Source of the DNA: a virus
Length of the DNA: 34,121 nucleotides
Strand: one strand, 5' to 3'
Virus record (IMG/VR): IMGVR_UViG_3300043427_000608
Span: 1 to 34,121 of that record
Numbering within the stretch: position 1 is the first letter of the stretch; every line of letters begins with the position of its first letter. Below the pieces are notes generated by a model. It saw only the letters and a list, made by a program, of their open reading frames with translations, was not told the origin of the DNA and ran no database searches. A program made the position numbers and the translations under genes. Positions 14,265 through 20,971 of the stretch are shown here, piece after piece.

Positions 14265-15638
14265 TTAAGGTGTTCCATTTGCAACTATGTTAGTTACAGA
14301 TGTAATGACTCCAGTTGAAGACATTGATGCAATTGTCGTTGCACCATACTTGAACAACAACTTTCCACCACTTTCTTCAATCGTGAAGTTTGTAGTCAAG
14401 AGTTTAGGGGTAGATGCCGCAGTTCCAGTAGTATTCTGGTTGAATGTCGGAAATGAAGTCAAAGATGCCGCTGATCCCGTGGGAGCCAACACATCAGTAC
14501 CAATCACCAATCCAAGATTCGTCCTAGCATCAGATGTAGTAGTTGCACCTGTACCACCATTTAAAACCGCAACAGTACCCGTCACATTAGATGCTGTGCC
14601 AGTTGTGTTTTGGTTAAAAGTAGGAAATGAGGTCAGGCTTGCAGCCGAGCCACTTGGAGACAGAACATCAGTCCCAATGACCAAACCCAGATTGGTTCTG
14701 GCATCACCAGCAGTAGATGCGCCCGTACCACCATCAGCAACTGCCAAATCTGTGATACCTGTGATTGAGCCACCAGTGATAGAGACATTGCTTGATGCTT
14801 GAGTAGCAATTGTTCCTAAACCACCAATGTCAGCAGTGGTCAGAGTAATAGCGCCAGTTCGCCCTGCAACTGAAATAACCAAGTTGGTCTGGTCAATCTT
14901 TTGCCAAGCAGTGCCGTTGTAGATTGCCCAATCTCCTGTCACCCAATCAGTGATGCCATTGAGGTTGGTTGAGCCAGAAACGCTGACTACATAGTAATAG
15001 TTGCTTGTGCCTGAACTTGATGTAAGCGTAGGCGTGTTTGTGGATGCGTTCCAGGTTCCCTGATAGCTTAAACCACCGCTGATAGCACTGATTTGAGCCT
15101 GTAGGCTTGCTAGAGTATCAAGTACATACTGAGAAGTACCGCCACCATTAGTAATGACTTTGATGCGTTCAGCAATATCAAAAGGAACAACCTCACCAGC
15201 ATTAATCTCACGACCATCATCAAGAGTGATGACAAGGCTACCATCAAAATCAATGCGAGCAGCGGAAACACCAATACCATTGTCGCCATCAACTCCATCA
15301 CGCCCAGGAAGGCCATCTCTACCTGTTGCGCCTGTTGCTCCTGCTGGCCCTTGCTTGCCATCTCGTCCATCTTTGCCATCTTTGCCATCCTGTCCATCTT
15401 GCACAGAGGCAACTTTGCTCTGAATCTCGCCATTCAACTGAGCAAACTTTTGCTCCATGTCTGACTTGATCTTTTTCAAGCCTTGGATAACAAGTTCAGC
15501 CCCCTTGCCAATAGACTCGCTCTTGGCCTTGGCAATCTTCTCTGCGGCAGACTGTTGCAAAGCAGTAATGATTTCCATCTGCTGTTCAGCAGAGATTCCA
15601 TCAATTCCTAGCTTACGCTCAAGATCGGCAATATCCAT
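14265..15638 (-). CDS. Collagen-like tail fibre (457 aa)
   Basis: Residues 1-80 form a helical coiled coil. Residues about 82-121 are 14 uninterrupted G-X-Y triplets (DGKDGKDGRDGKQGPAGATG), a collagen-like triple helix. The middle is beta-rich. Two tandem units of about 58 and 47 residues follow, each with GGTGA..T..DARTNLGL and ASLTSFPTFNQNTTGTA. The C-terminal 40 residues match the small fibre-like protein at 4691-4963. The ATG overlaps the portal stop (TAATG), so it is coupled to the portal. I infer a trimeric side fibre or spike-anchoring rod. Confidence 0.85.
   Translation of the reverse strand: MDIADLERKLGIDGISAEQQMEIITALQQSAAEKIAKAKSESIGKGAELVIQGLKKIKSDMEQKFAQLNGEIQSKVASVQDGQDGKDGKDGRDGKQGPAGATGATGRDGLPGRDGVDGDNGIGVSAARIDFDGSLVITLDDGREINAGEVVPFDIAERIKVITNGGGTSQYVLDTLASLQAQISAISGGLSYQGTWNASTNTPTLTSSSGTSNYYYVVSVSGSTNLNGITDWVTGDWAIYNGTAWQKIDQTNLVISVAGRTGAITLTTADIGGLGTIATQASSNVSITGGSITGITDLAVADGGTGASTAGDARTNLGLVIGTDVLSPSGSAASLTSFPTFNQNTTGTASNVTGTVAVLNGGTGATTTSDARTNLGLVIGTDVLAPTGSAASLTSFPTFNQNTTGTAASTPKLLTTNFTIEESGGKLLFKYGATTIASMSSTGVITSVTNIVANGTP
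14418..14732 (-). repeat. Tandem fibre repeat (two units)
   Basis: Unit 1 covers 14559-14732 and unit 2 covers 14418-14558 within the collagen-like fibre gene. At the protein level they share GGTGA..T.(G/S)DARTNLGLVI and the GSAASLTSFPTFNQNTTGTA stretch. At DNA level they have diverged at many third positions, so the duplication is old and kept for the protein. Such repeats often vary in number between related fibres. Confidence 0.75.
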
Positions 15639-18266: not shown

Positions 18267-19526
18267 TCACACACCGCTTATGATGTCTACAGGCTCCCAC
18301 TCATCATCTTCTTCACCCTCAAAGTAAGATGTTACAGCCAATTGGTCAATATAACTCAAGGCATCAGGAAGGTCATCGTGTACGCCATTGGCAGGAAACA
18401 TCAAGAGTTGATCGGTGAAATCATCCCAATCTTCTTCAGAGTTCAGCACAATACGCCCATGCTCAAACCGCCCTTGGAGACTCCAGATGATTCTGTCTGT
18501 CTTTTTCCTGTTGCCATGCGTTAGGTCAACTATGTGGGAATATACATTATTTTTCCGCATCAGGTCACTGAGGTACGGCAAAACAGCGTTTTTTAACGCT
18601 CCACGCTCGATTCCTACCGAAATTGGCCTGTAATCCCGCATCTTCATCAGGATTTTGGCAGCAGTTTCCCGAATGTCCCACCGCCCGTGGTCAATCTCTT
18701 TGACAAACCATTTGCCATCATCAGTGACTTTGACCACTGCAATGGCACTCTCATCTAGTCTTTTTTTCGCGTTAGCAGCTTGTTTAGCCACTTCTTCAAA
18801 TCCTGCCAAGTCGATTGCAATGAAGTAACTACCATACTCAGGTTCCACACCATATTTGATCCAATCTTCTTTAAAAACATCGCTTCCTGCGTTATCAAAG
18901 GATGCTAAGTATTCCTGCTTGAAAGCAAATGAACTTAGCGTCTTCTTGGCAGACTCAATCTCAGTTGGGTCTATCAATGGGTTGTCTTGGGTTGTGAAGT
19001 GCCAGGACTTCCAATCAGGATCAGATTCTTCTTGGCCCATCTTGAACAGATCATAGAACCAGTTGCGACCCTTGGGTGTGCCAATGAATATGGCCCTGCC
19101 CTTCTTGTCTGACAAAGAAGCCCTGATGACTTGCTCCCAGGCTTCAGGCTTAATGTCTGCAACCTCGTCTAGTACCGCATAGGTAAGGGACACACCCCGC
19201 AGGGTATCTGGCCTATCAGCACCACGAACATAAATCTTTGCACCATTTATCATGGTTATGTCCATGTTGTTGATGTGACTAGCCTGGATAACATCCCTGC
19301 CAATGTCTAACAACACATCCCAAATGATCTGCCGCGCTTGTCCATTGGTAGGCGCAACATAGAGAACTGCACTTCCTGCTGGGCAACGCAATGCTTCAAT
19401 AATTAGCGTAGTAGCCGCTAACCTAGACTTACCACAACGCCGACCAGCAGCCACAACCTTAAACCTTGTTTTATCAGCAAAGACTGTTTGCTGCCAAGGA
19501 AGAAGTGAGAAGTTGAGGTCAGACAT
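18267..19526 (-). CDS. Terminase large subunit
   Basis: This 419-residue packaging motor has a Walker A motif AAGRRCGKS at about 26-34, and a Walker B motif TYAVLDEVAD at about 115-124 with Asp120 and the catalytic Glu121. A GTPKGRNW coupling motif lies at about 149-156. The C-terminal RNase H-fold nuclease has FIAIDLAG (Asp239), VGIERGA (Glu307) and VHDDLPDALSY (Asp385/Asp388). It overlaps the small terminase gene by eight bases. It cuts concatemers and pumps DNA into the procapsid through the portal. The length is short but complete for the family. Confidence 0.95.
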   Translation of the reverse strand: MSDLNFSLLPWQQTVFADKTRFKVVAAGRRCGKSRLAATTLIIEALRCPAGSAVLYVAPTNGQARQIIWDVLLDIGRDVIQASHINNMDITMINGAKIYVRGADRPDTLRGVSLTYAVLDEVADIKPEAWEQVIRASLSDKKGRAIFIGTPKGRNWFYDLFKMGQEESDPDWKSWHFTTQDNPLIDPTEIESAKKTLSSFAFKQEYLASFDNAGSDVFKEDWIKYGVEPEYGSYFIAIDLAGFEEVAKQAANAKKRLDESAIAVVKVTDDGKWFVKEIDHGRWDIRETAAKILMKMRDYRPISVGIERGALKNAVLPYLSDLMRKNNVYSHIVDLTHGNRKKTDRIIWSLQGRFEHGRIVLNSEEDWDDFTDQLLMFPANGVHDDLPDALSYIDQLAVTSYFEGEEDDEWEPVDIISGV

Positions 19527-19911
19527 TTTTTGTTTCTACATCAGTCACATCTTGCAAGGGTTCAATCTCTACGCCACCAATGCCTGTGATGTTGATGGTA
19601 ACGGCATTCCTTTGCTTGCCTTCTTTCTCAAACAGACTGACGGGAAGCATACGATCCATACAGAGTTTGAGCATAGCGGCCTGTGCAGGGTGATCGTCAT
19701 TCATGGCAATCTCAATTGCTTTGTGAACAACATTAGAACCTGCACTGTTTATCAGGAGGTCTTTGAGTTCTTTGATGCGCTGAACTTCAGTCTTTGGCAA
19801 GAGTGCCGCAGGTCTTTCAGCATAGGTAGCCATAGTGAACTTCTTGTTCACAGCACCCTTTGGGCGACCTTTTTTCTTTAGGTTGTTTGGCAGTGCATCA
19901 ATCACATTCAT
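19519..19911 (-). CDS. Terminase small subunit
   Basis: A 130-residue protein with a basic N-terminus (NNLKKKGRPKGAVNKK, AT-hook-like) followed by helical RIKELKDLLINSAGSNVVHK and DHPAQAAMLKLCMDRMLPVS. I associate this pattern with small terminase subunits that recognise the packaging site and hand DNA to the large subunit. It is the first gene of the minus-strand late operon and overlaps terL. The ATG at 19911 is the only good start; GGGTAAAGT upstream is a weak ribosome-binding site. Confidence 0.75.
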   Translation of the reverse strand: MNVIDALPNNLKKKGRPKGAVNKKFTMATYAERPAALLPKTEVQRIKELKDLLINSAGSNVVHKAIEIAMNDDHPAQAAMLKLCMDRMLPVSLFEKEGKQRNAVTINITGIGGVEIEPLQDVTDVETKNV

Positions 19912-19941: not shown

Positions 19942-20045
19942 TGTTAGTGGATGGAATCGAACCAACGACTCGATTGAGGCCACAGCAGTCATTTCCTACT
20001 GCCTCGGAGTTCCCCTATCCGTTCTGCCAACTGAACTACACCAAC
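19942..20045 (-). tRNA. tRNA-like element 1, anticodon not assignable (104 nt)
   Basis: Read on the minus strand, GTTGGTG at the 5' end pairs fully with CACTAAC at the 3' end (seven pairs, one wobble). TA and a four-pair D-arm (GTTC, loop AGTTGGCA with the GG, GAAC) follow. A T-arm with a canonical TTCGATT loop precedes the 3' acceptor half. Between D-arm and T-arm are 54 bases instead of the usual 22-40. They contain GAGGC/GCCTC and GCAGT/ACTGC pairings but no normal seven-base anticodon loop with U at position 33. CCA is not encoded. It may be a decayed tRNA, an expanded one or a tRNA mimic. Confidence 0.4.
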
Positions 20046-20116
20046 ACGGCTGGAGACTGTTGTCGGCGTGGTGTCCACCTAAAGAACCTGGGTTCCCTGC
20101 AATCCCCATGCGTGTT

Positions 20117-20220
20117 AGCTGTTGATGAGATTCGAACTCACGGAGGCCCAAGTATTGCCCATGACGGCACTCAAGTCTCTTTAGTCATGTCACCAATAGA
20201 CCAGACTCTGGCACAACTAC
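20117..20220 (-). tRNA. tRNA-like element 2, anticodon not assignable (104 nt)
   Basis: On the minus strand, acceptor halves GTAGTTG and CAACAGC pair in six of seven positions. A long D-arm of class II type (CCAG, loop AGTCTGGTCTA, TTGG) follows. The T-arm GTGAG-TTCGAAT-CTCAT is perfect. The 51 bases between D-arm and T-arm hold a six-pair stem CATGAC/GTCATG with an 18-base loop, but no regular anticodon arm. Length and layout parallel element 1, 71 bases away. It may be a degenerate Ser/Leu-type tRNA or a structured non-tRNA. Confidence 0.4.
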
Positions 20221-20252
20221 TAACAACAACAATGTAACTCACTTTCTTTTGT

Positions 20253-20949: not shown

Positions 20950-20971
20950 CACTAGGCAAACAAACCTAGTG
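20950..20971. promoter_or_regulatory. Hairpin/operator CACTAGG-N8-CCTAGTG before the cassette
   Basis: Perfect seven-base arms (20950-20956 and 20965-20971) around CAAACAAA. It ends 30 bases before the first ATG of the plus-strand cassette and would form a stem in the mRNA leader just upstream of the ribosome-binding site. It could act as an operator in DNA or as a translation-modulating stem in RNA. Confidence 0.5.

Follow-up and report, generated by a model that had tools for sequence, protein, structure and literature searches.

Here, we show that three neighboring elements on the minus strand of a viral DNA, a tRNA-like RNA (T2), a hairpin (hairpin A) and a second tRNA-like RNA (T1), are modules of one tandem array of structured RNAs. 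The window, by which we mean the whole 34,121-nt stretch of DNA analyzed, carries this array between the leftward terminase and structural operon and rightward genes that begin near 20969. The features concerned are as follows.

20259-20231, minus strand: promoter-like site TTGTCA-17-TACATT, proposed from a consensus match alone
20114-20224, minus strand: T2, 111 nt (boundaries refined), with acceptor, D and T arms and the anticodon arm replaced
20143..20189, minus strand: replacement of the T2 anticodon arm, a stem CATGAC/GTCATG interleaved with a second helix
20041-20118, minus strand: hairpin A, CTAAC-ACG-CA-TGGGGATTG...CAGTCTCCA-GC-CGT-GTTGG with a variable loop; folding energy z -3.4
19942-20045, minus strand: T1, 104 nt, with acceptor, D and T arms and the anticodon arm replaced
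19967..20020, minus strand: domain replacing the anticodon arm of T1, 54 nt, a long hairpin predicted
19519..19911, minus strand: first gene 3' of the array, terS by its position directly upstream of terL

T1 proved to be as an earlier reading of the sequence alone (the sequence-only reading) had described it: 104 nt long, with a 7-bp acceptor (GTTGGTG/CACTAAC), a 4-bp D arm (GTTC/GAAC) with GG, a T arm GTTGG-TTCGATT-CCATC containing one U-U mismatch, and a 54-nt gap between the D and T arms without a U33 loop. It scores 40.1 bits (E 2.9e-5) with the Rfam tRNA model (RF00005; cut-off 29 bits), for which a 42-nt insertion is needed. In T2 the same reading had picked out a real element but had been wrong about its boundaries and about how far it resembles T1: because the closing helix spans 11 nt and includes a conserved A that stays unpaired, T2 extends from 20114 to 20224, and it combines a 3-bp D stem and a loop of class II type with the T arm GTGAG-TTCGAAT-CTCAT. 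Standard tools did not fold the pair as ordinary tRNAs, as ARAGORN in its standard mode called no tRNA at T1 or T2 and RF00005 left T2 unreported even at E 10. An anticodon arm with a 7-nt U33 loop is absent, and relatives of both elements carry a different arm.

Neither element is outstanding in folding energy against shuffled sequence (z -1.6 for T1, -0.4 for T2), so their reality rests on comparison, and the compensatory changes that the sequence-only reading had proposed looking for in relatives were found both for the arms of T1 and for T2. An alignment of the acceptor, D and T arms of T1-type elements, with the variable insert removed (A2), has 97.7% of its cells paired and changes on both sides in 5 of 16 pairs. 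In the T2 alignment (A1, eight sequences) 99.1% of cells are paired and both sides have changed in 8 of 28 pairs, a result that 0 of 500 shuffles equaled; partners slid out of register paired at 34-46%. The pattern used to collect T2 relatives fixed part of the sequence, its two free positions being the covarying columns 54-33 and 55-32. Within 20143..20189 it is columns 32-55, 33-54 and 41-73 that change on both sides, and this region is probably an H-type pseudoknot whose second helix varies at few pairs. Pairing is thus kept by compensatory changes while the anticodon arm is replaced, which supports the earlier suggestion of tRNA mimics and argues against degenerate or decayed tRNAs. A related design for T1 and T2, proposed from their seemingly equal length, was not borne out: they belong to different families with different relatives, the figure of 104 nt was a coincidence, and their true kinship is the modular frame that they have in common with hairpin A. 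Roles as RNase P sites or as decoys, also put forward at that stage, would be compatible with the structure.

Read along the minus strand, the order is promoter-like site, T2, hairpin A, T1 and terS (start 19911). The promoter-like site places the expected transcription start near 20224, which is the first base of T2, so that the position first assigned to the elements, at the operon head where its transcript should start, is upheld. When filled and empty slots are compared, the -10 element of this site arrives with the array and is missing from empty-slot relatives. The putative terS has no PHROG match of its own, and terL of the window matches phrog_2. Further into the window, 14265-15638 on the minus strand encodes a probable tail fiber protein with collagen-like Gly-X-Y repeats.

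Hairpin A, missed in the first reading, lies between T2 and T1 and is better conserved than any other part of the array; CTAAC is common to T2 and hairpin A, and GTTGG to hairpin A and T1. Across 159 distinct frames the pairs of the A stem are mostly 94-100% formed and the CA/GC internal loop is nearly invariant, while the pair that holds the free base of the search pattern occurs as G-C, G-U, A-U, C-G and U-A, with 27 double-change cells. The general plan of the arrays is CCAAC-hairpin A-GTTGG-body B-CCAAC, repeated in one to three units. GTTGG can pair either with the preceding CCAAC, which closes hairpin A, or with the following CCAAC, which closes body B, and as both use the same strand the two closures are mutually exclusive. 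T-arm motifs occur in 10 A loops, where dinucleotide shuffles lead one to expect 0.18, and in 14 B bodies, where the corresponding figure is 0.48. Most B families show no recognizable T arm, and 'tRNA-like' therefore describes a subset alone. No CCA end is encoded by the arrays.

To follow the array through its relatives, we aligned 80 loci of TerL relatives over the slot. Loci L001 and L149 nearly duplicate the window. Conservation extends through the leader as far as TTGTCAAACAA and is seen again in the terS gene, and the slot between the two is hypervariable. Among relatives with 88-100% identical TerL, the slot is empty (about 37 nt) in 27 loci and holds array modules in 34, and either state is found with 100% identical TerL proteins (L001 filled, L002-L005 empty). 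A filled slot contains one to three units, each reading CCAAC - A hairpin - GTTGG - B body - CCAAC-AACCTA. Some relatives (L013, L015, L023 and L054) have a small extra gene (MPKGIPKRADELTP...) between the array or empty slot and terS.

Beyond these relatives, scans with exact A-frame patterns recovered at least 222 distinct units in at least 184 arrays on diverse contigs; because the frames were collected with exact patterns, these counts are lower bounds and the conservation of the frame is partly by construction. The 222 units listed comprise about 109 A-loop and about 82 B-body sequence similarity families, freely combined, and among them ten B families are joined to one A family. Frames thus stay conserved as their contents are swapped between phages in the form of discrete modules. 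A single array was present in each of 20 long contigs. Of 134 arrays whose last unit is closed, 120 are followed by an open reading frame on the same strand within 200 nt (median distance 28 nt), and under stricter rules (ATG, ribosome site, at least 60 amino acids, within 100 nt) 45 of 133 arrays qualified, compared with 7 when the divergent direction was counted. The genes downstream fall into 52 clusters, of which terminase small subunits are the commonest, and canonical tRNA genes on the same strand lie near 18 of the 184 arrays listed, against 3.5 expected. Among 399 genomes from the order of a Burkholderiales metagenome-assembled genome (MAG), the frame pattern was carried by that MAG alone, on a short phage-like contig. 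Of 15 pattern matches in genome contigs, a full unit is present only in L208, and the other 14 are probably due to chance.

INPHARED held no close match to the window array. At Rfam 15 gathering scores, the window and 15 array loci gave tRNA matches alone and no other family, and the open-access papers searched contained no description of arrays of this kind. Outside the usual frame, a cyanophage, Cylindrospermopsis phage Cr-LKS3 (L274, 2001-2065), carries the A0 loop module at 80% identity.

Built from different frame sequences, the same plan recurs in P1-like, lambdoid, Ackermannviridae and Schitoviridae phages, and it is found in hundreds of unrelated phages. About 200 INPHARED phage records contain body B6 (GAATGCGCAGGCTGATGCGC ... 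GCCGGAGATCAGCACCGGC), as do P1-like plasmids, and many of these matches are partial. Its outer stem varies yet pairs, with at least 6 of 7 pairs formed in 99 of 106 cases, against 28% in a mismatched-partner control that is high because many relatives have a common frame; its two loops are able to form a kissing contact (GCTGAT:ATCAGC), in which six A-U replacements occur. B6 is carried by P1-like plasmids, E. coli phage ep3, HK620, Klebsiella phage UPM2146 and IME11, within noncoding stretches of A-B plan that use another frame sequence (CACAACAGGTAAGAGCATT / ATGCTCTTTCCGTTGTG) and reach 3.3 kb. In UPM2146 (L398, 1390-4726), the 3.3 kb of unannotated sequence that precedes tRNA-Met and tRNA-Arg seems to consist of RNA modules of this type strung together. 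Noncoding coliphage arrays in 766 INPHARED records have a module resembling the tag region of tmRNA (AAATGCAAACGA...), whose tag-like 10-codon frames read, for example, ANDEQFLAVA, ANDDVVLMAA, ANEEMYLAVA and ANDDLMMVAA vs. ANDENYALAA in E. coli. This module is unannotated in most of the INPHARED records listed and was not found in the open-access papers searched; examples are as follows.

L393 (HK620), 2190-2400: tmRNA-tag-like module
L398, 2260-2420: tmRNA-tag-like module
L399, 2270-2410: tmRNA-tag-like module
L275, 810-940: tmRNA-tag-like module

In T4, RNA C (rnaC, species 1 RNA; L276, 1409-1547, and L548-L550) is an annotated small stable RNA with compensatory changes in its acceptor-like stem (CGA..TCG to CGG..CCG) and in its T stem (CCGGG, CCTGG, CCAGG). 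Likened to the arrays by its plan alone, it appears to be a molecule of this type.

Structure and array organization are well supported; as to function, we infer a working model in which the array would be transcribed from the promoter abutting T2. During synthesis hairpin A would form first, and its outer pairs could afterwards be displaced by body B. The tRNA-like frames (acceptor stack, T arm and D/T elbow) may be recognized by host tRNA-maturation enzymes such as RNase P, excised as stable small RNAs and protected from decay, with the domain replacing the anticodon arm and the A-hairpin loops as the putative working cargo. This cargo most likely would bind and titrate host factors that recognize tRNA-like RNA, such as defense nucleases, toxins or RNA-processing proteins, and such titration would account for the fast module turnover between near-identical phages. 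That elbow and T arm are retained without an anticodon points to partners reading the top half of tRNA, for example RNase P, which makes the variable domain in place of the anticodon a natural candidate for function. Modules are exchanged between near-identical phages, are present or missing at one slot and occur irrespective of the gene downstream, a pattern closer to accessory cargo than to an essential regulator, and for this reason we tentatively favor leader-encoded RNAs on a tRNA frame, probably processed by host tRNA maturation, that carry variable mimic or decoy domains.

The main rival, which we consider rather unlikely, is a cis-acting leader, in which the array would govern how the downstream operon is processed, stabilized or translated, with the tRNA-like elements punctuating cleavage and GTTGG serving as a switch through its choice between CCAAC partners. 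The short median distance of 28 nt to a same-strand open reading frame, the mutually exclusive closure of A and B through their common GTTGG strand and the location of the HK620 B6 element between the late promoter and the lysis genes are all consistent with such control. It is difficult to reconcile, however, with the 27 close relatives that do without an array at the same slot, with the 14 B families that precede the same terS, and with the occurrence of the same modules ahead of many genes (52 downstream clusters).

Less probable again is an element acting as DNA, either recombination-site hairpins resembling integron attC (R'' / spacer / L stem / variable tip) or a region near terS where packaging starts. 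The layout is indeed attC-like, with outer CCAAC/GTTGG, an unpaired spacer, an inner stem and a tip of 21-112 nt, the modules shuffle, and the slot adjoins terS in many cases. The core site of attC is GTTRRRY, and the CACCAAC/GTTGGTG of the arrays, read directly, fails the R'' RYYYAAC / R' GTTRRRY core. Moreover, a wobble is kept on one strand (T-G in 126 of 159 frames at one A pair, which would be A-C on the other strand), tRNA T loops and D/T kissing are unexpected for attC, each genome has one array, often not before a terminase, and no integrase was present among the window proteins scanned.

We regard it as improbable that the elements are components of phage trans-translation, as a split or mimicked tmRNA. 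In favor of this, enterobacterial arrays built to the same plan contain a reading frame, exactly 10 codons long, that resembles a tmRNA tag, and tmRNA likewise has an insert replacing the anticodon arm; against it, a tag-like reading frame occurs in none of the 222 freshwater units listed, and T1 and T2 keep a D stem (covarying in T2), which tmRNA does not possess. Degenerate or intron-containing tRNA genes are the least credible origin, since, though a weak match of the T1 D arm to phage tRNA-Asn genes makes tRNA ancestry plausible and intron-tolerant ARAGORN reads T1 as tRNA-Ala(GGC) with a 31-nt intron, intron calls were also made on 343 of 400 shuffled inserts (31 equaling the score of T1), calls on relatives were inconsistent (Ala, Phe, Pyl, Arg or none) and compensatory changes indicate ongoing selection on the non-tRNA parts of T2. 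An intron-containing tRNA was therefore rejected for T1.

Returning to tRNA-scaffolded cargo, a broader and more doubtful proposal is that the arrays constitute an undescribed RNA cassette system present in many phage lineages, in which exchangeable effectors on tRNA-like and hairpin leader frames would be matured by the host and serve as mimics or decoys against defenses that sense or cut tRNA. If this is true, the arrays would be an RNA counterpart of anti-defense islands, and the 50-year-old stable RNA C of T4, for which we know of no function, would be a relic or a member of the system. The arrays offer a comparative handle on this molecule. A large set of phage RNAs, conserved in structure and quickly shuffled, has seemingly been overlooked because gene finders skip noncoding leaders and tRNA finders need an anticodon, and since well-known phages (P1-type, HK620 and IME11) also carry arrays built to this plan, their function is directly testable.

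Several known systems share part of this design. RNA anti-CRISPRs (Racrs) are, like the arrays, small phage RNAs and possible mimics, but Racrs mimic CRISPR repeats (PMC10651486) and no CRISPR-repeat resemblance was noted for the arrays. As in tmRNA, including phage-encoded tmRNA (PMC9004378), T1 and T2 have tRNA-like ends and an insert replacing the anticodon arm, but they are about 100 nt long, retain a D stem and, in the freshwater arrays, come without a tag reading frame. Canonical phage tRNA genes, of tRNA-Asn type for T1, are alike in acceptor, D and T arms, and arrays often adjoin tRNA genes, whereas T1 and T2 have no anticodon arm, no encoded CCA and a closing helix shared with the neighboring hairpin. 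RNA C of T4, a small phage RNA in a tRNA cluster with more than 90 nt replacing the D and anticodon region, differs in being a single gene without hairpin A and in having two U-U mismatches in its acceptor. Finally, in tRNA-scaffold vectors for stable RNA expression a foreign RNA replaces the anticodon arm; those vectors are artificial, whereas the arrays are natural, tandem and exchangeable.
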